From positions 1-20,803 of IMG/VR virus record IMGVR_UViG_3300032291_003815: a stretch of DNA of 20,803 nt. The stretch is one strand, 5' to 3'. The notes under the pieces were generated by a model. The model was not told the DNA's origin. It did no database searches and saw nothing but the letters and a program-made list of their open reading frames with translations. A program made the translations under genes and the position numbers. The DNA comes from a virus. This document shows, in pieces, positions 1-19,712 of this stretch. Within the stretch, counting starts at the first letter, position 1, and each line of letters opens with the position of its first letter.

Positions 1-1282
1 ATGCTGTCAATTCAGCTTCAGCATCGATGTTGTGGAATGCCGCAACGTCTTGAGCTAATTCAGGAGACCATTGTGCTCTTAGTTTTCTTTCAGTTACAGA
101 AACTGTTACAGATTCTAAATCGAAAGAAACCTCACCAATTTGATCTTCAAACTCAAGGTTAGCATATCTTCTATACCATGCGGTGAATGAAGTTGTAGAA
201 ATTCCTGTGAAAACAGTTGTTCCTGTGTAACCATCTAAAGATGTTGAGTTACAGTCAGCACATACAGGACAAGATAAATCAACCTCTAAGTAGATACATC
301 CATTCTCATCACAAATGTCATTGTAGTTACCACCGTTACCAGTGTTTGTTCCATTTGCAGGGAATGTGCTACCGAAAGTAGTTGAAGCGTTTGAACCGTA
401 TTGAACGATACCTTTACCATATATTTGAGTTACAACTCTAAATAACAATGGTAAGTATTGATTATTTGCGTTTTTAATAACGTCACATGGTGTTGTAGAT
501 GCCGATAAACCAGCACCACCGTAGATTTTAAGATCTGAAAGGAAAGATTCAGTATCCATTTCATTACCATCAGGACCAATAAGTTTACCAGCGCCTGCGT
601 TAGCGAAACCACAAAGTTTGATAATAACTTTTCTTGTGTTACCTGCTGGAACATTAGCATCAACTAAAGTTCCTGCAGACCATACTTGTGTTGTTGCAGT
701 TGCAGTAACAGCAGTCCATCTACCTTTAGAGTAGTCAAATAATCCTGGAGGATCTAAACTTGCTTCATTTCCTTCATAGAATAAATCGTAAAGATCTTTT
801 GTATAAGGATAGTTAGGTGCCGGTGCCCCTGGATAACCTTGATTAGGATCTCCATTTGGGTTATTTGGTGAACCTACAGGTGCGTAATGATCACCACCTG
901 TTGGGTTATTCGGGAAATCTGCAATTGATCCTGCGTTTGAATAACCTTGGATTCTTGGCACAAAGTAGAACAATTTACCGATTGGTAAGTTCATAGCTTG
1001 CACTGATACGATGTCGTTAGCCAACAATTTAGAGAAAACTCTTCTTACGATTGGAAAAACAACTGTTTCGAATGCTCCGTTAGAAGTTCCATCAGCAGTT
1101 GCTTCGTTAATCAAGAAAGAAGCTTGGTTTTCATATAACTGTGCTACGTTTTCTTTTAAGTGACCTCTTAGACCATCTAAAAAGCCTAATTTGTCCCATT
1201 TGTTAATTGTGTCTTCTTTGATAACTTTAAGGTGTTTCAAACCGATGTTACCAACAAGACCTGATTCTAATAATGCTCCCAT
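1..1282 (-). CDS. 23: Major capsid protein, T4 gp23-like (3' end cut by window edge)
   Basis: This is the precursor of the main hexameric shell protein of the phage head. The first 427 codons are visible from the ATG at 1282; the C-terminus lies beyond base 1. The region near residues 405-425 (RKLRAQWSPELAQDVAAFHN) is a gp23 hallmark. An early stretch near residues 73-110 (VFPIVRRVFSKLLANDIVSV, then MNLPIGKLFYF) also matches the gp23 pattern. Residues 58-61 read INE|A, which fits the T4 prohead protease rule (Ile/Leu-x-Glu, cut after Glu), so a propeptide of about 60 residues would be removed by the nearby protease. An insertion near residues 300-345 is unusually Cys-rich. The gene follows the scaffold gene by 32 bases, as gp23 follows gp22 in T4. 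No clear Shine-Dalgarno is visible; the leader is A-rich. The family call is firm; the partial state is due only to the window. Confidence 0.93.
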   Translation of the reverse strand, partial: MGALLESGLVGNIGLKHLKVIKEDTINKWDKLGFLDGLRGHLKENVAQLYENQASFLINEATADGTSNGAFETVVFPIVRRVFSKLLANDIVSVQAMNLPIGKLFYFVPRIQGYSNAGSIADFPNNPTGGDHYAPVGSPNNPNGDPNQGYPGAPAPNYPYTKDLYDLFYEGNEASLDPPGLFDYSKGRWTAVTATATTQVWSAGTLVDANVPAGNTRKVIIKLCGFANAGAGKLIGPDGNEMDTESFLSDLKIYGGAGLSASTTPCDVIKNANNQYLPLLFRVVTQIYGKGIVQYGSNASTTFGSTFPANGTNTGNGGNYNDICDENGCIYLEVDLSCPVCADCNSTSLDGYTGTTVFTGISTTSFTAWYRRYANLEFEDQIGEVSFDLESVTVSVTERKLRAQWSPELAQDVAAFHNIDAEAELTA

Positions 1283-3193: not shown

Positions 3194-3922
3194 TTATTTA
3201 TCCAAATAATCGGATAATCTTTTCATTAAGTCAAGTGATTTATAACCAGATTCACCAACATGTCGTTCAGCATTTATTTTTTTCTCCTCCTCAAGATTTT
3301 CTTCAAACTGAAATCTTTGATCAGGTTCACTAAACAAATAAGCTCCTGGTGTAGATGGAGATGACACAAGGTCAAAACAAATTAATTCAAAATCATCCTG
3401 AACTTCGTTTTGTTCACCAACTTTTTTAAGAGACCCAACTCCACGAGAAGAAATACCCAAAGTAACTCCCTGACGAAGATAGTTAGCCGCTAAATCTCCT
3501 TTTGTTGATACAATACCTCTTTCGTGAAAACCTGGACTTGTAAGTAATTTTAATTTACCCAATAATACGGGACCTTCCCACCATATATCAGTAATGGCGT
3601 GTGATACTCTATCTAAGTCTATTAGAGAAGACTCAGGGTGGTTTAGTTCTGAAAGGGCGGTTCCTTTTTGAATCATTTTTTTATAATTCTCGGCTTCTCT
3701 TTTTAAAATCTTTTCAGGATAGATTCTTCCGTTTCTATTTGGGGTGTTATATTTTTGTAATACGGCATAAAACTCAAAAGGTTTTGAATGATCTAACATA
3801 TCACGATTCTCCCTTATCATAGATAAGTTTCTTCTTTCATTCGGATCGATATAACCCGCATCATACTCAACAAGAATTCCACGACCTGAATCTCTTGGTC
3901 CTAATATTTTTAAATTGTCCAT
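3194..3922 (-). CDS. 21: Prohead core protease, T4 gp21-like
   Basis: A serine protease that cuts scaffold and capsid precursors during head maturation. The 242-aa length compares with 212 for T4 gp21. The fold signature is NRNGRIYPEKIL (about residues 62-73), the catalytic histidine in SELNHPE (His95), the serine in GISSRGVGS (Ser158 or Ser159), and a downstream FDLVSSPSTPGA segment whose Asp184 may complete the triad. These are the landmarks of the herpesvirus/T4-type prohead protease family. A possible substrate site, INE|A, is visible near residue 60 of the capsid protein in this window. A TATTTATA motif sits 13 nt before the ATG, directly behind the stop codon of the preceding gene. The call is firm; which serine is catalytic is inferred. 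Confidence 0.92.
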   Translation of the reverse strand: MDNLKILGPRDSGRGILVEYDAGYIDPNERRNLSMIRENRDMLDHSKPFEFYAVLQKYNTPNRNGRIYPEKILKREAENYKKMIQKGTALSELNHPESSLIDLDRVSHAITDIWWEGPVLLGKLKLLTSPGFHERGIVSTKGDLAANYLRQGVTLGISSRGVGSLKKVGEQNEVQDDFELICFDLVSSPSTPGAYLFSEPDQRFQFEENLEEEKKINAERHVGESGYKSLDLMKRLSDYLDK

Positions 3923-3943: not shown

Positions 3944-4411
3944 TTAATTAGTTTCGATTTCTTTTTTGACGGGTTTGATATTTCCTTTTTTTGTAAGGTA
4001 GAATTTGAAGTATTTGTTTTTATTCATTACGTCACCATATACTTCTTTAATTAGGGACTTTACGTATTTTTTTAATTTTGGTGATTTAAAATCCATCGGT
4101 TCTAAAACGAATAAATTTATTTCTAAATTCATAAAGGATTTTTTTTGAAGTTGTATTCCACTTGTTCTTAAGTCTAAATCTACGATAAATTTTGTGTCAA
4201 AAACTTCTTTGTTTATGTTTTCTAAAATTGTGTGTTTTATTGATCTTGTCATATTTAAAACAACTCGATTCCAATTTTCAACTTCTTCTTTTGGTTCAAC
4301 CCAACTTTGAATGTTTATAAAAATTGATTTTAGATTAGTGGAATCAATTGTTCCATAGTGTGATTTGAACGTTCTGTAACCACTTAATTTGATAGTTTTT
4401 CCTTTTTTCAT
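3944..4411 (-). CDS. Conserved-looking phage protein, function unknown (155 aa)
   Basis: Not recognised. The protein is basic at both ends and has alternating strands and helices. It includes a long amphipathic segment (about residues 45-70) and a VDLDLRTSGIQLQKKSFMNL stretch (about 97-116) that looks like a beta sheet core. There is no signal peptide, membrane segment or metal motif. It is divergent from the bS21 gene, with 82 bases between starts, and precedes the protease. In T4 the space between portal and protease holds the small core proteins gp67 and gp68; position alone does not make this a homologue. Its own leader has no clear TATTTAT motif, only a weak AATTTATT at about 4457-4464. 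Confidence 0.75.
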   Translation of the reverse strand: MKKGKTIKLSGYRTFKSHYGTIDSTNLKSIFINIQSWVEPKEEVENWNRVVLNMTRSIKHTILENINKEVFDTKFIVDLDLRTSGIQLQKKSFMNLEINLFVLEPMDFKSPKLKKYVKSLIKEVYGDVMNKNKYFKFYLTKKGNIKPVKKEIETN

Positions 4412-4465: not shown

Positions 4466-4473
4466 TATTTATA
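4466..4473 (+). promoter_or_regulatory. TATTTATA motif before the bS21 gene
   Basis: Sense ATTATATTTATATC, 20 nt before the ATG at 4494, followed by an A-rich leader without Shine-Dalgarno. This is a plus-strand member of the motif set. It keeps the same orientation relative to the gene, which shows that motif direction matters. Confidence 0.5.
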
Positions 4474-4493
4474 TCAACAAACTAAAAAAACTT

Positions 4494-4682
4494 ATGTTAA
4501 TTGTAGAAGTAAAAAAAGGTAATATTGAAAAGGCGTTAAAAGACCTTAAAGGAAAAGTTATTAAAACAAAACAAAATAGTGTTTTGTTTCAGCGAAAAGA
4601 ATTTGTTAAACCTTCAGTAATAAAAAGAGAAGAAAACAAAAAGGCTGTTTATATTCAAAAAGTAAAATCCAAAAAGAATTAA
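4494..4682 (+). CDS. rpsU: Phage-encoded 30S ribosomal protein bS21
   Basis: A 62-residue basic protein matching the bS21 pattern along its whole length: an N-terminal strand (MLIVEVKKG), IEKALKDLKGKVIKTK (helix 1, residues 11-26), then RKEFVKPSVIKREENKKA (residues 34-51) with the family's Phe-x-Lys-Pro-Ser-x-x-x-Arg core, and a Lys-rich tail. Bacteroidetes bS21 is about the same length. In that phylum bS21 helps to hide the 16S anti-Shine-Dalgarno, so a phage copy could alter which mRNAs are initiated. The gene is a single plus-strand insertion in a minus-strand structural block. Its stop overlaps that of the facing gene through a shared TTAA (4679-4682). The leader is A-rich with no Shine-Dalgarno. 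The family call is strong; replacement of the host protein in ribosomes is inference. Confidence 0.85.
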   Translation: MLIVEVKKGNIEKALKDLKGKVIKTKQNSVLFQRKEFVKPSVIKREENKKAVYIQKVKSKKN

Positions 4683-5395
4683 AGTCCTTCGTTAAGTTGT
4701 TTTAACTTATAGTAATTCAGTTCTGAAAATGATTCTGTTTGCAATCTTGTTAACACTTGATTTATGGTTGAGATTGTTTCAGAATCGGTTTCGTTATTTT
4801 TTTGATCTTCTAATTTTGAAATAACTTCTTCTTTTTGAGAGTTATAGTTCTCAACCAAAGTTTCTTTTGGGGTATTTAAAATTACTTTTAATTCTTTTCT
4901 TTCAGATTCTGTTAGAGAAGAAATAAATTTAGATATTGTTTTGTTTGCCACAGAAACCATAGATTTTAATGGAACTTTTATCACCTCATCAGTTTTATTT
5001 TCTTTTTGAGTTAATCCCTCTAAAATCATTTTTTTACTTTTAATTTTGTTTTCAAGAGTCAAGACACTTGTGGAAAATAAATTATCAATTTTTTCATAAT
5101 TATTTTCACATTTCTGATGACCAGCCCAAGCATTTAATTCTCTTAAGTGTAGTGGGTTAACTTTGTTGATCAAATTTTCGTAAGCCACAATTGACTCATT
5201 TATGAATTCGTTTGCAACATTTTCTGAAAGTCCTTTTTTATTTGATAACTCATCATATAAGAAAAAAAGTTTTGCAATGTTTTTATTTTTCAAAACCAAT
5301 TCCTCAAAAATAAAAATATTTTCTTTAAATGAATTTTTTTTGTATGACTCAACTAGTTGATTTTCTATTTTTGATTTTAATTCTCCGACTTTCAT
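4679..5395 (-). CDS. Helical phage protein, function unknown (238 aa)
   Basis: Not recognised. The protein is almost wholly alpha-helical, rich in Lys, Glu, Asn and Ser, with no signal peptide, membrane segment or obvious motif. A likely coiled-coil region spans about residues 175-215. It lies between portal and protease. A core or chaperone role in head assembly is possible from location and composition alone, since T4 prohead core proteins are also small, charged and helical. Its 3' end overlaps the stop of the convergent bS21 gene by three bases. The TATTTATT motif lies 14 nt before its ATG and begins within a base of the upstream stop codon. Confidence 0.78.
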   Translation of the reverse strand: MKVGELKSKIENQLVESYKKNSFKENIFIFEELVLKNKNIAKLFFLYDELSNKKGLSENVANEFINESIVAYENLINKVNPLHLRELNAWAGHQKCENNYEKIDNLFSTSVLTLENKIKSKKMILEGLTQKENKTDEVIKVPLKSMVSVANKTISKFISSLTESERKELKVILNTPKETLVENYNSQKEEVISKLEDQKNNETDSETISTINQVLTRLQTESFSELNYYKLKQLNEGL

Positions 5396-9082: not shown

Positions 9083-10861
9083 TTACCTCATTAAACCTCC
9101 AAATAACCAACCATATGTTTGATAATCATTTCTGGTTGGACCGTTATTTTGTAATCCTGCCCTTTCCCTTAACATATTATCGTTAGGGATTGTTGGATTA
9201 AAGTGAGCTTCTTTTCCTACAGATTCGTTATTAACTACCGCCCAAGAGTCAATCATAGATTTTGCTTGTTCGGTCGCCTTCTCTAATTTAGAAAAAGATG
9301 CTTCGGCAATATAGATTGCCATTGAAATACCCATAATCAAATCGTCATGTTGTCCTTTTTGATGATCAGGTCTTCCATTAATATATACAAAAGTATTCAT
9401 TTCGTTATATAAACGAATACTTTTTAATTTAAATTTGTGTCTAACGGCCTCCTCAAAAGCCGCAATAATTTGAACTCTTTTGTTGTTAAAGTTTAATCCT
9501 GGTATTTTTTCAACCGATCCTTTGTTTGTTGCCCACGGATTAAATGCATCAACACCATCAACATATAAACTTTTATAACCAAGTTCTTGCATTTTTCTAA
9601 CCGTTGTGATTCCCATACCACCAGTTATATCGACAACAACAAACGCATTATACATCAACCCCCACTTATAAGCAACTTCCGCCAAAGTGTCAGGTGGTAT
9701 TTTTCCAACATATTCCAATACTTGTTCTCTTTCATCAAAATCTATAATTTGAATTGACGAAAAGTCTTCACTATCACCACGAGAAACATCGACACCCATA
9801 ATGTATTTATGACCTTCAACAGGTTCTTTCCAGATCCAAAGAGAATTACCCATTAATTTAGATGGTGGGTCTTGTAAAAAATTATTTTTAATATCTTCTA
9901 ATTGTTTATTATCAAATACGTTGTCACCTGAACCTAAAAATTCACAATTTAACTCTTGGTTAATTTTTCTTTTATCATATTTAAGTTTTTTAACCATTTT
10001 TTCATACCAAGATGAACATGGTTTGTATCCTTGATTAAAGAAATGTTGTAATTCTTGATAATCTCTACTATATGGGTCTACATGTGCGAAAGATATATTC
10101 TTTGAGGTGTCAAAATCATCGATATTAAGTAAATAATGAATAAGATCGTCAGTTGGGACCAAATAAAGATCTTTCGCATATCTTGGATCTCTATACCAAT
10201 ACATTTCAGAGATTTTAAAGTTATTCATTCCTTTTAATGACTGATCGTATATTTCATAATAAATTTGATCGTATCCATTTGGTGTAGAAACTACAATTAC
10301 CTTACCCCCTGTGGATAAGGACGCCATACAAGCAGCCCAAAAATCACTATCGGCCTCGATAAACGCCGCCTCATCAAATACAAGAATTGTAGGGGTAAAT
10401 CCACGAAGTGCATCTTTTGATGTTGCAACCGCCTTAACCTCAGATCCATTAGTTAATTTGTAATGTCTTTGTGAGTTTTTTTCTGCCGCAAATCCAGCAC
10501 CAACCCAACTCGGCCATTGATCAACAAAGGATCTAATCTTATTTGCCATCTCCATTGATGTATCAAGTTTGTTGGCAATTATTAGAATTTTTTCAGGTTG
10601 AGTTTTTTTAGCGAAAACCAACCTTTTGGAAACCCAAGCCGCTGTCACGGTAGATACACCTGCCTGACGATATTTTAATGCAATATTTTCTTCGTAATCT
10701 TCATAATCTTTTAAAAGAGAAACTTGATCAGGAAACAATTCTAACGGCACGTATTTAGACACCGTATTATCGTATGTTTGTAAATACGTTCTAAGTGCGT
10801 ATGGAGTATCACTCATACACTTAGCATATTCAATTAAAACTTGTTCTTTAGATAAACCCAT
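9083..10861 (-). CDS. 17: Terminase large subunit, T4 gp17-like
   Basis: The packaging motor ATPase and headful nuclease, which docks on the portal. The 592 residues compare with 610 in T4. The ATPase domain shows a variant Walker A, KYRQAGVST (residues 63-71), Walker B ILVFDEA (159-165) and the coupling motif VVSTPNG (190-196). The nuclease domain shows the acidic triad positions in IMGVDVSRGD (Asp358), FVVVDITGG (Asp411) and QHDDLIMG (Asp506/507). The Walker A has Val where many P-loops have Lys; the conserved Arg in YRQ may compensate, as noted for terminases. The TATTTATA motif ends four nt before the ATG and sits in the loop of a possible hairpin over the start. A small terminase subunit was not recognised upstream. 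Confidence 0.95.
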   Translation of the reverse strand: MGLSKEQVLIEYAKCMSDTPYALRTYLQTYDNTVSKYVPLELFPDQVSLLKDYEDYEENIALKYRQAGVSTVTAAWVSKRLVFAKKTQPEKILIIANKLDTSMEMANKIRSFVDQWPSWVGAGFAAEKNSQRHYKLTNGSEVKAVATSKDALRGFTPTILVFDEAAFIEADSDFWAACMASLSTGGKVIVVSTPNGYDQIYYEIYDQSLKGMNNFKISEMYWYRDPRYAKDLYLVPTDDLIHYLLNIDDFDTSKNISFAHVDPYSRDYQELQHFFNQGYKPCSSWYEKMVKKLKYDKRKINQELNCEFLGSGDNVFDNKQLEDIKNNFLQDPPSKLMGNSLWIWKEPVEGHKYIMGVDVSRGDSEDFSSIQIIDFDEREQVLEYVGKIPPDTLAEVAYKWGLMYNAFVVVDITGGMGITTVRKMQELGYKSLYVDGVDAFNPWATNKGSVEKIPGLNFNNKRVQIIAAFEEAVRHKFKLKSIRLYNEMNTFVYINGRPDHQKGQHDDLIMGISMAIYIAEASFSKLEKATEQAKSMIDSWAVVNNESVGKEAHFNPTIPNDNMLRERAGLQNNGPTRNDYQTYGWLFGGLMR

Positions 10862-11748: not shown

Positions 11749-12145
11749 AAACTACTTTTTTTTCAAACTCTAATACTATATCTCTTTCATATAGTTTGTT
11801 TTTTACTTCTTCTTCAGATTCCCCAAAATGAAAAACTAAACGTTTCACTAAAGAGAAATCAATATTGTCGGTCTCAACCTCCCAACCCATAGCAATAACT
11901 CCATCCATAGAATCAATTAAAGAAAACACATCTGAATTTTGAACCAAATCAAAACTCACCTCTTCGTTAATTAATGTTCCCACCTTTTTAATGTATTCTA
12001 AATCAGGTGGTGATGGATAACCATTAGCAGGTTTTGATTCCCAATTTTCACCAAACACTTCTAAAGTATCTGAAAAAATAAATTCATAAATATTATCACC
12101 TTTATAGTTAGGTCCCAATCCGTTAATATAAATCAATTGATTCAT
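11738..12145 (-). CDS. Phage protein of unknown function (135 aa)
   Basis: An acidic, mixed alpha/beta protein beginning MNQLIYINGLGPNYKGDNIY. I believe similar small proteins occur in other distant T4-like phages, but I know no function for them. A conserved-looking core is NIYEFIFSDTLEVFGENW with a following Pro-rich loop (SKPANGYPSPPDL). There is no signal peptide, membrane segment or catalytic motif. Its ATG overlaps the stop of the 479-aa gene (ATGA, 12145-12142), with GGTGAG seven nt upstream as a possible weak ribosome site. Its end overlaps the next gene by 11 bases. The three genes from 13581 to 10894 therefore form one tightly coupled unit. Confidence 0.8.
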   Translation of the reverse strand: MNQLIYINGLGPNYKGDNIYEFIFSDTLEVFGENWESKPANGYPSPPDLEYIKKVGTLINEEVSFDLVQNSDVFSLIDSMDGVIAMGWEVETDNIDFSLVKRLVFHFGESEEEVKNKLYERDIVLEFEKKVVYEN

Positions 12146-13581
12146 ATGATCTCACCACTTTTAGTAATTTTAGTTTCGTTAATACCTTCTTTAAAAATTA
12201 AATTTCCTCTTGTTGATAAACCCATCAATTTTGTTCTTGGATTTTCTTTAATATATTCTAAAGCCACATCCAATTGATTTGATGATTCAGACAATCTAAT
12301 AACATTTTGTTTATTTTGATTGTAATTTAAGTTGGTTTTTTTTGTTTTAGATTCTTCGTATCTGTTAATTTGAGTTTCTTCGTTTATAAAATATTTTGAT
12401 AATACTTTATCTACTGTTGATTCACTAAAAGTTCCATGTTCAAATCTATCAACATTAGGATAGTGTTTTCTACCTTTTCTTCTTTCTCTATGGTATTCAT
12501 CATCCATATCAAAATCTTCTTCTTCATGTCTTAATTTTTTTGACATACCTGATGCCAAAGCACCTCCCATATAGTCTTTGAATGCGGGGCTAAAACCATC
12601 ATATCCTTCGGCCATTTCAGGTTCTTGTGGTGGTTCAGGAGCAACTTCCTCTTCGTCAGATTTTTCTTCAAAAGACACTTCATCTTCTTCACTACCACCT
12701 TCTCCGTCTTCAACACCTTCTAATTTATTGATAATTTGTTCAATATCATCTTCATCTAAAACATCAACATCAATTGCCGATAAAATAGAGTTAATAATGT
12801 ATTTAATATCTTTTGGATCTAATTCTTTTTCTTCTTCGTAAGATCTAATTTTTTGAGCTAATTTTCCTGTAAGAATTTGAATTCTTTTTAAATCCGAAAT
12901 TTTCTTTTCTTTTGGTTTTTTTTCAACATCAATGTCAACTTCTTCTTCACCTCCCATATCAGGCATTGGTGGCATTTCTTCTTCACCTCCCATATCCGGC
13001 ATTGGCGGTTCTTCACCTCCCATATCAGGCATTGGTGGTTCTTCTATAGGAGCGCCTCCCATATCAGGCATTGGTGGTTCTTCTATATCAGGAATAGGGG
13101 CTGGTTCAGGTGCGGGTGCTGGTTCAGGTGCGGGTGCTGGTTCAGGTGCGGGTGCTGGTACAGGAGTCGCGGCGGCTGCAGGTTCTTCAGTTTTAGGTTT
13201 CTTACTTTTTAGTATGAACTTTTTTTTTTGCTCCCCTAAAAGTGGAGTTCCTTCCTCATTTTCAAAAAGAGTGTTGATTTCTTTTGTCATCAAATTCAAT
13301 CTTTTTAATGCCTGAGAATATGAAGAATAATATTTTCTTTGTTTCATCGGCTCGATATACTCCGTTTCAGATTCGTTAAGTGTTTTTTTAACAATATAAC
13401 CTTGTCTTTCTTTAACGATTTCATAGGTATTACCATCGGCCAAACCAATTTTATATTCGCTTGATTGTGTTTCATTAATGTTTTGTGGAATATTTTCATT
13501 ATAACGAGCAATTTCCATTATTCGTCTAATTTTATCCATTCCTTGAAGTTTCTCACTTCCGATAGGTCTAAATCCTGCCAT
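12142..13581 (-). CDS. Proline-rich repeat protein of the head-gene block, function unknown
   Basis: A 479-residue modular protein. Residues 1-35 (MAGFRPIGSEKLQGMDKIRR, then IMEIARYNEN) form a helical start. About 43-105 form a compact domain with IVKERQGYIVKKTLNES, which looks like a small beta structure. Residues 140-163 are Ala-Pro-Glu repeats. Residues 167-211 contain four copies of PPMPDMGG. About 225-300 are helical and acidic. About 330-350 are GYDGFSPAFKDYMGGALASG. The C-terminus (about 395-479) is a separate small domain. The layout suggests two folded ends joined by an extended linker, as in virion or core proteins, but I do not recognise it. Two TATTTATT motifs lie upstream, and it heads a three-gene coupled unit that leads to the terminase. 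Confidence 0.8.
   Translation of the reverse strand: MAGFRPIGSEKLQGMDKIRRIMEIARYNENIPQNINETQSSEYKIGLADGNTYEIVKERQGYIVKKTLNESETEYIEPMKQRKYYSSYSQALKRLNLMTKEINTLFENEEGTPLLGEQKKKFILKSKKPKTEEPAAAATPVPAPAPEPAPAPEPAPAPEPAPIPDIEEPPMPDMGGAPIEEPPMPDMGGEEPPMPDMGGEEEMPPMPDMGGEEEVDIDVEKKPKEKKISDLKRIQILTGKLAQKIRSYEEEKELDPKDIKYIINSILSAIDVDVLDEDDIEQIINKLEGVEDGEGGSEEDEVSFEEKSDEEEVAPEPPQEPEMAEGYDGFSPAFKDYMGGALASGMSKKLRHEEEDFDMDDEYHRERRKGRKHYPNVDRFEHGTFSESTVDKVLSKYFINEETQINRYEESKTKKTNLNYNQNKQNVIRLSESSNQLDVALEYIKENPRTKLMGLSTRGNLIFKEGINETKITKSGEII
12949..13080 (-). repeat. Degenerate repeats encoding PPMPDMGG
   Basis: Four copies of a segment based on cctcccatatcaggcattgg occur with variable Glu-coding spacers. 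Small differences (for example a g for a t in the Gly codon) show they are older than the perfect repeats elsewhere in the window. Confidence 0.85.
13101..13154 (-). repeat. Three perfect 18-bp repeats encoding Ala-Pro-Glu units
   Basis: The unit ctggttcaggtgcgggtg repeats at 13101-13118, 13119-13136 and 13137-13154, with partial copies at the edges. It encodes (APAPEP)n. The GC content is much higher than in the surrounding sequence. Confidence 0.9.
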
Positions 13582-14414: not shown

Positions 14415-14657
14415 TTATAGTTTCTTATATGTGTGGGCTTTAGAAATGTTTTTATTAAAAAAATTCCCTTGTGATTCCGCCATTCTAAATTGAGTGTAAG
14501 TTTGATGTGGAACATCACTATATTCATACCTTACCCCGTTTTTAAACTCCGCAATCATTTTTTTTGTTAATGTATCGTATTGTGTTCTTACAATATTTGA
14601 TGATTGAACTTCATTTAAAATCGTAGTTCCGCTAATTATTTCACTTGTTATTGCCAT
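14415..14657 (-). CDS. KTSC domain protein
   Basis: An 80-residue protein covering one KTSC domain. VQSSNIVRTQYD (residues 17-28), a beta strand pair around IAEFKNGVRYEYSDVP (about 35-50) and a C-terminal ESQGNFFNKNIS match the domain's core. KTSC is a small beta fold first described at the C-terminus of some lysyl-tRNA synthetases. It is common as a free protein in phages, with no proven function; nucleic-acid binding is a guess. The start overlaps the end of the upstream gene by 17 bases, implying coupled translation. No TATTTAT motif precedes it, in keeping with its internal place in the unit. Confidence 0.85.
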   Translation of the reverse strand: MAITSEIISGTTILNEVQSSNIVRTQYDTLTKKMIAEFKNGVRYEYSDVPHQTYTQFRMAESQGNFFNKNISKAHTYKKL

Positions 14658-15533: not shown

Positions 15534-17573
15534 ATGTTAGAATTTATGGACGAAGGAAATGACAAATCAAAGAAAAAATCTGATAGCGGGACTCCTGTAT
15601 TAGATAATTTTAGTAAAGACTTAAATAAGTTAGCACAAGACGGGAAATTAGATCCTGTAATTGGAAGACAAAAAGAAATTTTTAGAATCGCTCAGATTTT
15701 ATCTCGAAGAAAGAAAAATAACCCAATTATTATTGGTGAGCCAGGTGCAGGAAAGACAGCAATTGTGGAGGGTCTTGCTATGATGATTCACAACGGTGAA
15801 TGTCCAAAAAATTTAATGGATAAAAGAATCGTATCTTTAGATTTAAATTCATTAGTTGCAGGAACAAAATATAGAGGTCAATTTGAAGAACGAATGAAAG
15901 TTATTATCGAAGAATTGCAAGCAACTCCAAACATCATTTTATTTATTGATGAAATTCACACTATGGTTGGTGCAGGAAATAGTTCAGGTTCTTTAGATGC
16001 GTCAAACATTTTAAAACCTGCTTTATCAAGAGGAGATATTCAATGTGTTGGAGCAACAACTTTAGATGAATATAGAAAACACTTTGAAAAAGATGGTGCG
16101 TTAGATCGAAGATTTCAAAAGGTTATTGTTGACCCATCTTCAAAGGAAGAAACATTTGAAATTTTAAAGATGAGTAAATCAAAATATGAAGATCACCACA
16201 AAGTGACTTATGATGATAAAACTCTTTGGATATTTGTTGAGTTAGCTGATCGATATATTACAGATCGTGAGTTTCCTGATAAAGCATTTGATATTTTGGA
16301 TGAGGTTGGGTCAAGAATGCAAATTGACATCAAATTACCTGAAGAAATCGAAAAATTAAAGGACGAAGCAAACGCCATCAAACAAGAAAAAATGAATGTC
16401 ATTAAACAACAAAAATATGAGTTGGCTGCTGAGTTAAGAGATAGAGAACGTAATGTTTTATCAAAGTTGGATTTAGAAAAAAAGAAGTTTGAAGAAAGTT
16501 TATTGAATAGTAAAAGAAGTATTCCTGAAGATTTAATTTATGAGGTGGTTTCCAACATGACCAAAATTCCAATTTCTAACATTAATTTGGACGAAAGAAA
16601 TTCATTAATCAACTTAAATGAAAGTTTAAATTCAAAGGTTATTGGTCAAGAAGAAGCTGTAAATAAAATTTCAAAAGCAATTAGAAGAAATAGAATTGGA
16701 ATCAAAGATCCAAATAAACCGATCGGTTCATTTATTTTCTTGGGATCTACGGGTGTTGGTAAAACATATTTGGCAAAACAATTGGCAAAAGAAATCTTTG
16801 GTAGTGAAGACAATATGATTCGTGTAGATATGAGTGAATACCAAGAAAAACACACCATTTCTCGTTTGATTGGATCTCCTCCAGGATATGTTGGTCATGA
16901 TGAAGGTGGTCAATTAACAGAACAAGTTAAAAACAAACCTTATTCTGTGGTATTGTTTGATGAGATTGAAAAAGCACACAAAGACATCTTCTCAACACTT
17001 CTTCAGTTGTTAGATGATGGTCACATTACAGATTCATTGGGTCGTAAAATCAACTTCAAAAATTGTTTAATTATTATGACTTCCAACATTGGGGTTAAAA
17101 AATTACAAGACTTTGGAACTGGTATGGGATTCCAACCTCTAAAAAGTGATGTCGTTAAAGAAGAAGAAAAACAAGATGTGCTGAAAAAAGAAATGAAAAA
17201 GTTCTTCTCACCTGAGTTTTTAAATAGAATTGATGATGTTGTAATTTTTAACTCTTTAGAAAAACCACACATTGACGTTATTACCAAGTTAGAAATTGAC
17301 AAATTATTACAAAGAGTTTCAGAGAAAAAATACTATTTTTCTTATGAACAAGATTTGGTTAATTATTTATCCAAAGTTGGTTTTGACGAAACTTTTGGTG
17401 CAAGACCTATCAAAAGAGCAATTCAAAATAAAATTGAAGATTTAATTTCGGAAAAAATCTTAATGATGGAAATTGAAGAAAACAAAGAATATGTTTTGAA
17501 GGTGGAAAATGATGAGGTTATAATTTCTAATAAAGAAGAAAAAGTTAAAAGAACAAGAAAAAAGAAAGAATAA
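15534..17573 (+). CDS. ClpC-like AAA+ unfoldase lacking the Clp N-domain
   Basis: A two-ring-domain protein unfoldase that would feed substrates to ClpP. D1 has Walker A GEPGAGKTA (residues 68-76), pore loop KYRG (112-115), Walker B ILFIDE (135-140) and RRF (192-194). A short middle domain (about 265-330) carries a UVR-like helix at 292-305. D2 has Walker A GSTGVGKT (404-411), pore loop GYVG (451-454), Walker B VVLFDE (472-477), NRID (564-567) and sensor GARP (622-625). MGF at 531-533 sits where ClpC has its ClpP-docking VGF loop. The opening TPVLDNFSKDLNKLA is where D1 begins in flavobacterial ClpC, so the roughly 150-residue substrate-binding N-domain is missing (679 versus about 850 aa). 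No clpP is visible here, so host ClpP is the likely partner. The family is firm; activity is inferred. Confidence 0.93.
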   Translation: MLEFMDEGNDKSKKKSDSGTPVLDNFSKDLNKLAQDGKLDPVIGRQKEIFRIAQILSRRKKNNPIIIGEPGAGKTAIVEGLAMMIHNGECPKNLMDKRIVSLDLNSLVAGTKYRGQFEERMKVIIEELQATPNIILFIDEIHTMVGAGNSSGSLDASNILKPALSRGDIQCVGATTLDEYRKHFEKDGALDRRFQKVIVDPSSKEETFEILKMSKSKYEDHHKVTYDDKTLWIFVELADRYITDREFPDKAFDILDEVGSRMQIDIKLPEEIEKLKDEANAIKQEKMNVIKQQKYELAAELRDRERNVLSKLDLEKKKFEESLLNSKRSIPEDLIYEVVSNMTKIPISNINLDERNSLINLNESLNSKVIGQEEAVNKISKAIRRNRIGIKDPNKPIGSFIFLGSTGVGKTYLAKQLAKEIFGSEDNMIRVDMSEYQEKHTISRLIGSPPGYVGHDEGGQLTEQVKNKPYSVVLFDEIEKAHKDIFSTLLQLLDDGHITDSLGRKINFKNCLIIMTSNIGVKKLQDFGTGMGFQPLKSDVVKEEEKQDVLKKEMKKFFSPEFLNRIDDVVIFNSLEKPHIDVITKLEIDKLLQRVSEKKYYFSYEQDLVNYLSKVGFDETFGARPIKRAIQNKIEDLISEKILMMEIEENKEYVLKVENDEVIISNKEEKVKRTRKKKE

Positions 17574-17630: not shown

Positions 17631-18053
17631 ATGAAAACACTTCTTTTATCTTTGGTTCTTTTTTTAAGTTTTTTGAGTTTTAGTCAAAAAATAGTAATTG
17701 AAATTTTTGAAAGACAAGAATTTGTTTCTTATAGAAACACAACCTTGGATTCTGTAATTATGAATCCTGATGTGGTTAGTGATCTTGAGGTTACAAAAAC
17801 AACATATGTTATTGATTTAAATGAAAACACATCTTCTTACTTTGTTGATGGAGAATTTTTAAGTGTTTTACCTGTTGACGTAGTTCGTGATGGCGATGGA
17901 CTTTTTGTGGTAAAAATATTGGAAGAAGGATTTGATTACGGTTTAATTGTTAATATTGGAAATGATGGTGATAATGTTTTGTGGTATTGGAATTCGGAAC
18001 AAATGACCACCGTTAAAAAAATGACAAAGTTTAATATTCTCAAATCTTCATAA
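17631..18053 (+). CDS. Exported protein of unknown function (140 aa)
   Basis: The N-terminus MKTLLLSLVLFLSFLSFSQ is a clear Sec signal peptide: one Lys, a 14-residue hydrophobic core, and a Ser-Phe-Ser before the likely cut, with Gln as the first mature residue, common in Bacteroidetes. There is no lipobox cysteine. The mature part (about 120 residues) is acidic and beta-rich, with FVSYRNTTLDSV and YFVDGEFLSVLPVDVVRDGD. I do not recognise its family. It could act in the periplasm or envelope, for example in superinfection exclusion or lysis control, but nothing in the sequence decides this. A host-type promoter drives it, and a bidirectional terminator follows. Exported proteins are uncommon among T4-type late genes. 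Confidence 0.82.
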   Translation: MKTLLLSLVLFLSFLSFSQKIVIEIFERQEFVSYRNTTLDSVIMNPDVVSDLEVTKTTYVIDLNENTSSYFVDGEFLSVLPVDVVRDGDGLFVVKILEEGFDYGLIVNIGNDGDNVLWYWNSEQMTTVKKMTKFNILKSS

Positions 18054-18680: not shown

Positions 18681-19712
18681 ATGAATCTAAATAAATTTAA
18701 AGAACTCTTATCTGTCCCAACCAAGACTTATAAGGAAATTAAAATGGTGGAGTATTTAATTTCTACCATTGGTGATATGGATGGGGTTACTTTAATCTGT
18801 GACGGAAACCTTAACATATATGCAACTAAAGGAACATTGGATGAAGGTGAATTTTACCCAATGTTTATTTCTCACACCGACACGGTTCACGAACTGGTTG
18901 ATGAAATAATTGTTAAAGAAGAATATCTTATTCGTCCATTTACATTTGGAAAAGATTTTGGAAAAGATCAAGTATTATGTTTAAAGGCATATGATAAAGA
19001 CGATAACCCAACAGGAATTGGTGGTGATGACAAATGTGGAATTTATATTTGTTTGGAACTTCTTTCTCAATTAGATAAAGTTAAAGTTGCGTTTTTCGTA
19101 TCAGAAGAAACAGGTTGCCATGGATCAAAATTGGTAGATAAAGAGTTTTTAAAAGATGTTGGTTATTGCGCCCAATATGACGCACCTGGTGATCATCTAA
19201 TTTCACAGGCTTGCATGGGAACCACTTTATTTGATAAGAATGGAGATTTCTTCAATACCGCAATTCGATCAATCACAAAAGGGTTTAATAACGAGATGTT
19301 GGTTCAGTCTCATCCATATACCGATATTATGATGATTAAACAACTATCTGATCTATCTTGTATCAATATGTCATGTGGTTATTATAATATGCATACAGCA
19401 AACGAATTTGTATGTATCGATGATGTAAAAAGAGCAATCGAAGCTGGAAAAAATATGGTTAAAGATCTTGGTTTGAAAAAATACGAATTCAAATATGATG
19501 AACCAAAACCTGTTAAATCTTTATATAATTTTGATGATGTTGATGAAAGTCCATTTTATGATGAGGTTCACCAATTAACATCTATTGACGTAATTGAAGA
19601 AAAAGATGGATTCATAATCGCCGACATATACGATGAAAACCACTTTTATATTGATGATGAAGATGGGTTAAAATTATACAAGATTTTAAAAGATCGTTAT
19701 CGTCTTAATTGA
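18681..19712 (+). CDS. M20-like zinc metallopeptidase
   Basis: A 343-residue cytoplasmic peptidase of the M20/M28 clan, related to di- and tripeptidases. Metal and catalytic landmarks in order are SHTDTV (His65, Asp67), GIGGDDKCG (Asp116 or Asp117), FVSEETGCHGS (Glu142, Glu143), YDAPG (Asp167) and CGYYNMHTANEFV (His238). The last motif is typical of phage and Bacteroidetes members. The C-terminal 80 residues form an acidic extra region with no family counterpart that I recognise. The likely role is hydrolysis of short peptides, perhaps recycling products of Clp proteolysis, or a cell-wall-related amide; the substrate is unknown. It has a host-type promoter. Its 3' end overlaps the convergent 19697-20791 gene by 16 bases, so no terminator separates them. 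Confidence 0.87.
   Translation: MNLNKFKELLSVPTKTYKEIKMVEYLISTIGDMDGVTLICDGNLNIYATKGTLDEGEFYPMFISHTDTVHELVDEIIVKEEYLIRPFTFGKDFGKDQVLCLKAYDKDDNPTGIGGDDKCGIYICLELLSQLDKVKVAFFVSEETGCHGSKLVDKEFLKDVGYCAQYDAPGDHLISQACMGTTLFDKNGDFFNTAIRSITKGFNNEMLVQSHPYTDIMMIKQLSDLSCINMSCGYYNMHTANEFVCIDDVKRAIEAGKNMVKDLGLKKYEFKYDEPKPVKSLYNFDDVDESPFYDEVHQLTSIDVIEEKDGFIIADIYDENHFYIDDEDGLKLYKILKDRYRLN

Follow-up and report, generated by a model that had tools for sequence, protein, structure and literature searches.

A Bacteroidetes-type bS21 gene without a Shine-Dalgarno sequence in the head-gene block of a T4-like phage

The window, the whole 20,803-nt stretch of DNA analysed here (positions 1 to 20,803 of IMG/VR virus record IMGVR_UViG_3300032291_003815), carries a block of T4-like head genes and, within it, an ORF for ribosomal protein bS21. 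This ORF spans 4494-4682 on the plus strand and encodes 62 aa, beginning MLIVEVKKGN and ending VKSKKN. The features at and around the ORF are as follows.

2..1282, minus strand, continuing past the window edge: major capsid protein Gp23 (MCP), PF07068, E 6.7e-23
3194..3922, minus strand: prohead protease, T4 gp21-like, Peptidase S77, PF03420, E 1.5e-22
3944..4411, minus strand: 155-aa neighbour, divergent from bS21, 82 nt start-to-start
4466..4472, plus strand: TATTTAT element resembling a promoter, 28 nt upstream of the bS21 start codon
4473..4493, plus strand: A-rich bS21 leader region without a Shine-Dalgarno (SD) sequence; neither the window nor 79 relatives showed pairing to the 16S tail
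4494..4682, plus strand: bS21 gene, 62 aa, Pfam PF01165, E 6.6e-9; PDB match 7jil bS21; Tyr53 corresponds to Flavobacterium johnsoniae Tyr54
4679..5395, minus strand: 238-aa gene facing bS21, its stop overlapping the bS21 stop in TTAA
5885..7696, minus strand: portal protein, T4 gp20-like, PF07230, E 9e-78
9083..10861, minus strand: terminase large subunit (TerL), T4 gp17-like, PF03237, E 3.9e-12; phrog_2

Within the head block, bS21 was the only plus-strand gene, and the flanking T4-like head genes were all on the minus strand. The TAA stop codons of bS21 and of the 238-aa gene opposite overlap in TTAA at 4679-4682, as the first-pass annotation had recorded. That annotation had also described bS21 as alone on the plus strand, which holds inside the head block but not farther off, where the Clp gene (15534) and the genes at 17631 and 18681 are on the plus strand too. 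The first of these (15534-17573) encodes a double-AAA Clp-type unfoldase and has TATTTAT upstream, and a sister phage has phrog_4871 at the corresponding place; the last (18681-19712) encodes an M20/M42 peptidase-like protein. Minus-strand genes farther along encode a KTSC-domain protein (14415-14657) and a proline-rich repeat protein (12142-13581; PAPEPAP, PPMPDMGG), the latter with two TATTTAT copies upstream. No Pfam or PHROG family match was obtained for the 155-aa neighbour, and none for the 238-aa neighbour, whose predicted structure was poor (pLDDT 59) and whose sole match was an uncharacterised phage protein. The 238-aa protein is probably the bS21_CN of Chen et al. Its N-terminus contains an (L/I)xE site (LVES/LTES) resembling T4 prohead-protease cleavage sites, and, judged by this resemblance, it may be an internal head protein that undergoes processing.

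The 62-aa product was placed inside the Ribosomal_S21 family by a profile search, scoring 35.8 bits against a cut-off of 27 and aligning residues 4-53 of 62 to profile positions 2-52 of 55. In a phmmer search of the PDB, the top match was F. johnsoniae bS21 (7jil_z, E 6.9e-9), with residues 1-59 aligned to 1-60, so that the earlier description of an end-to-end match was essentially right. Helices were predicted at 11-25, 27-33, and 40-61. A Foldseek search with the bS21 model gave weak scores (E 0.8-9), and the matches listed were all ribosome entries. By alignment, Tyr53 corresponds to the host tyrosine (Tyr54) that blocks the anti-SD sequence, the residue that marks a Bacteroidia-type, anti-SD-sequestering bS21, and it was present in 81/81 close sequences, in agreement with the Bacteroidetes-type anti-SD link drawn in the first-pass annotation. 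The data directly support family membership and retention of this tyrosine, and by sequence the ORF is a genuine bS21 of Bacteroidetes type. In comparison with F. johnsoniae bS21 (PMC9976891; PDB 7jil), the phage protein has the same family, three-helix layout, and Tyr54 equivalent, whereas it is 47% identical, has one residue fewer near the N-terminus, and between its first and second helices reads KVIxTKQ where the host protein has KF(D/E)KTGxV. This linker was found in 81/81 proteins of phage groups A and B and in the 20 group C proteins (groups defined below), but in none of the 80 Flavobacterium or 30 other Bacteroidota loci sampled. In groups A and B, LRxR was also changed to LFxR.

An IMG/VR scan recovered 80 loci with bS21 65-95% identical to that of the window. 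The window and a further 49 loci made up group A, and group B comprised 29 loci placed by their leader together with L065 and L070, which the script had left unplaced; group C consisted of 20 loci from a second scan with the host protein as seed, with about 46-54% identity to the protein of the window. The order of protease, 155-aa gene, antisense bS21, 238-aa gene, and portal was kept in groups A, B, and C. In groups A and B, the 155-aa-type gene started 78-102 nt from the bS21 start in every testable locus, and the 238-aa gene was convergent with bS21 in all intact loci, with an overlap of 4, 9, or 18 nt; homologues of both neighbours were also present in group C. In the phylogeny, groups A, B, and C and one 735-kb phage joined at 97/93 inside Bacteroidota bS21; the tree was built on only 64 columns and its deep forks are weak. 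The median dN/dS of the close bS21 sequences was 0.16, indicating that the gene is under purifying selection. Since relatives occur in hundreds of IMG/VR contigs, selection is purifying, and the gene arrangement is kept in every locus that allowed a test, 4494-4682 is a real gene and not a chance ORF. One 72-kb IMG/VR contig (L221, around 2501) carried a bS21 leader near-identical to that of the host locus L171; this bS21 probably represents host DNA or was acquired very recently.

This gene arrangement has been published. Chen et al. 2022 (PMC9723584) described jumbo phages infecting Bacteroidetes in which an antisense bS21 lies in the TerL/portal/protease/MCP block between two conserved hypothetical genes, is transcribed together with the late structural genes, and has Tyr or another aromatic residue at position 54. 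The window shares with those phages (clades a-e) the antisense bS21, the two flanking hypotheticals, the same head block, AT-richness, the aromatic residue at position 54, and nearest bacterial relatives in Bacteroidetes. Their genomes are about 290-330 kb, the window is a 20.8-kb fragment, and a sister contig reaches 272.6 kb. Nothing essential differs, which confirms the window bS21 as a new member of the published group; the promoter motif and SD loss are undiscussed in that paper. Chen et al. also proposed that phage bS21 displaces host bS21 late and favours phage transcripts. The first-pass annotation, which missed this publication, thus largely restated it in both its finding and its inference. 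Its late placement of bS21 stands, with the gene lying among late genes and co-expressed with structural genes in the published group, and it overlooked that the gene is without the strong SD of host rpsU.

In all 80 Flavobacterium rpsU leaders, pairing to the 16S tail had an energy between -18.4 and -22.8 kcal/mol. The leaders of phage bS21, in the window and 79 relatives, gave -4.7 to +1.6 kcal/mol, on average no better than shuffles, and an SD was likewise absent from 20/20 group C leaders. The strong-SD rpsU leader, which is common but not universal in the host lineage, is therefore directly seen to be lacking in the window and 79 relatives; it is a trait of gene regulation and not of protein family membership. 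An exception was LR756501 (L216, around 3001), a 735-kb phage that retained AGGAGG before bS21 (-12.1 kcal/mol). McNutt et al. 2023 (PMC9976891) reported that host rpsU has an extended SD, that ribosomes lacking bS21 translate rpsU preferentially, and that deletion of the bS21 C-terminus or the Y54A substitution raises rpsU expression. The strong SD of Flavobacterium rpsU is the basis of this host autoregulation, and the phage copy, without the SD, is probably outside the feedback loop. In a broader Bacteroidota sample (the 30 best matches among 118 genomes), 20 rpsU leaders reached -13 kcal/mol and 10 fell short, so the feedback argument would hold only if the host of the window is of the strong-SD type.

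Upstream of the phage genes, TATTTAT was the top enriched 7-mer in two sister phage genomes, preceding 102 ORFs in G002 (21.5 expected) and 51 in G004 (9.1 expected), with no enrichment upstream of Flavobacterium genes (5 versus 7.5 expected). Measured from motif start to ATG, distances were most often 11-12 or 20-24 nt and extended past 45 nt, with a minimum of 11 nt except for three G002 cases at 7 nt, one of them within the overlapping TATTTATTTAT. Immediately ahead of the motif A or G was preferred, and positions +11 to +13 favoured A. TATTTAT is best read from these patterns as a phage-specific, -10-like promoter whose start site would lie 11-13 nt downstream; many phage mRNAs would then be near-leaderless, which fits the spacings. 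With such a start, the commonest spacings would leave the motif outside the mRNA. The first-pass annotation had taken UAUUUAU as a recurring element in place of the SD, a reading that fails on the motif's position (11 to 45+ nt from the ATG, rarely <11, with an A-rich, start-like position 11-13 nt downstream); variable spacing and the sharp 11-nt minimum, the three 7-nt cases aside, were the grounds for rejecting a ribosome-binding element. At the window locus, the expected start of the bS21 transcript is near 4477-4479, so its leader would be some 15-17 nt long. The leader block TATATTTATATCAACAA was common to about 50 relatives. In nearly all group A loci, ATCAACAA (4473-4480, plus strand) directly followed TATTTAT before bS21, so that conservation extends past the promoter-like core. 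In group B, the bS21 ATG was preceded at a distance of about 13 nt by a motif that departed from TATTTAT at one base and mostly read TATTTGT or TATTTCT.

The T4 late promoter octamer is TATAAATA, and TATTTATA agrees with it at 6/8 positions and differs at two. In the window, the motif preceded the scaffold, protease, bS21, portal, and TerL genes as well as the 238-aa, 151-aa, 479-aa, 245-aa, Clp, and 171-aa genes, and genes for the tail sheath and tail fibre also had it upstream. Where G002 genes had a PHROG annotation, structural genes predominated with the motif and DNA-metabolism genes without it, though numbers were small and there were exceptions. A strictly late promoter class was only partly supported, as the DnaB helicase and homing endonuclease genes also had the motif and the MCP gene was without an exact copy upstream; late specificity is suggestive only.

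These leaders also bear on how phage bS21 might act. Both Chen et al. and the first-pass annotation proposed a retargeting of ribosomes toward phage over host transcripts. It would act through the divergent N-terminal/linker region, and the fixed block that differs from the host (KVIxTKQ, with LFxR in groups A and B) does lie on the part said to face mRNA (PMC9723584). However, the A content of 440 phage leaders was 0.479 against 0.483 for 186 Flavobacterium-type leaders, and the SD energy was -1.5 against -1.25 kcal/mol (host leaders near rpsU, biased by shared synteny, were excluded). A-rich leaders thus do not set phage mRNAs apart, and, with position profiles also alike, there is no visible feature in the leaders to select; UAUUUAU, for its part, resembles a promoter and not an mRNA signal. 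The altered linker could act on mRNA choice in a way hidden at the leader level, but we regard retargeting as unlikely, and the earlier claim of a bias toward phage mRNAs finds no sequence support. Overall, the interpretation in the first-pass annotation was partly supported.

Incorporation of phage bS21 might, by analogy, poison ribosomes rather than help them. Mizuno et al. 2019 (PMC6375957) showed that bS21 of the Pelagibacter phage HTVC008M enters E. coli 70S ribosomes and leaves them about 95% inactive (activity about 5%). A corresponding host shut-off, in which general initiation would be impaired late while phage mRNAs escaped through their abundance or some other factor, seems distinctly improbable here: the host in that work was heterologous, the window gene sits with the late capsid genes, a stage at which phage translation has to remain high, and Tyr53 and the overall helices are retained. 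HTVC008M bS21 is likewise phage-encoded and its ribosome entry was shown, but it has a proteobacterial host, belongs to another bS21 subgroup, and is outside an anti-SD-sequestering context. Least probable of all, and very doubtful, is an extra-ribosomal or virion role as a basic RNA/DNA binder for the head or a protein packaged for delivery, a possibility for which the position among head genes, the packaging raised by Chen et al. (PMC9723584), and a PHROG match (E 0.0016) to a family annotated as 'minor head protein' could speak, but that match is marginal, the strand is opposite to that of the head genes, and the ribosomal features of bS21, Tyr53 included, are retained.

We consider it reasonably probable, if well short of assured, that bS21 made late under a phage promoter enters the 30S subunit, blocks the anti-SD through Tyr53, escapes feedback, and supplants host bS21. 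A lytic T4-like Bacteroidetes phage would thus have a functional late-gene bS21 under its own promoter class and would make the protein during capsid production. Phage bS21 would join host 30S subunits lacking or exchanging bS21, and Tyr53 would keep the 16S 3' tail, the anti-SD, sequestered, leaving ribosomes competent for SD-less mRNAs of host and phage alike. Translation of the SD-less phage bS21 mRNA would be independent of bS21-free ribosomes, unlike that of host rpsU, and synthesis would run without feedback. As phage bS21 filled the bS21-free ribosomes, host rpsU translation would be turned off, and the phage form would progressively replace the host form. The data themselves show family membership, Tyr53, SD loss, the promoter-like motif, the conserved locus, and purifying selection, while ribosome incorporation, host rpsU repression, and any benefit to phage translation are what we infer.

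Phage bS21 may, on this sequence pattern, silence host rpsU. More tentatively, and possible rather than probable in our view, the host feedback would be turned on itself: an SD-less, promoter-swapped bS21 would fill bS21-free ribosomes, host bS21 would fall, and the pool would be converted with no destruction of host bS21. McNutt et al. (PMC9976891) speculated that host autoregulation would counter phage bS21 and that host bS21 might be cleared by a protease of the phage; contrary to the former, the SD-less phage gene suggests that autoregulation could just as well serve the phage. Literature searches on late promoters of Bacteroidetes phages and on a link between phage bS21 and autoregulation found nothing beyond PMC9723584, PMC9976891, and PMC6375957. 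Phage SD loss and the promoter reading of TATTTAT are new relative to PMC9723584 and PMC9976891, and SD loss with use of the feedback by a phage was absent from those two papers and from the searches, which reached only a minority of subscription journals.

For phage-encoded ribosomal proteins, Bacteroidetes are a rare case in which the molecular role of bS21, in anti-SD occlusion and autoregulation, has been worked out, so that the absence of the SD from the phage gene makes the proposed mechanism specific and readily testable. If repression of rpsU by phage bS21 is true, it would provide a concrete mechanism for virus-made specialised ribosomes.
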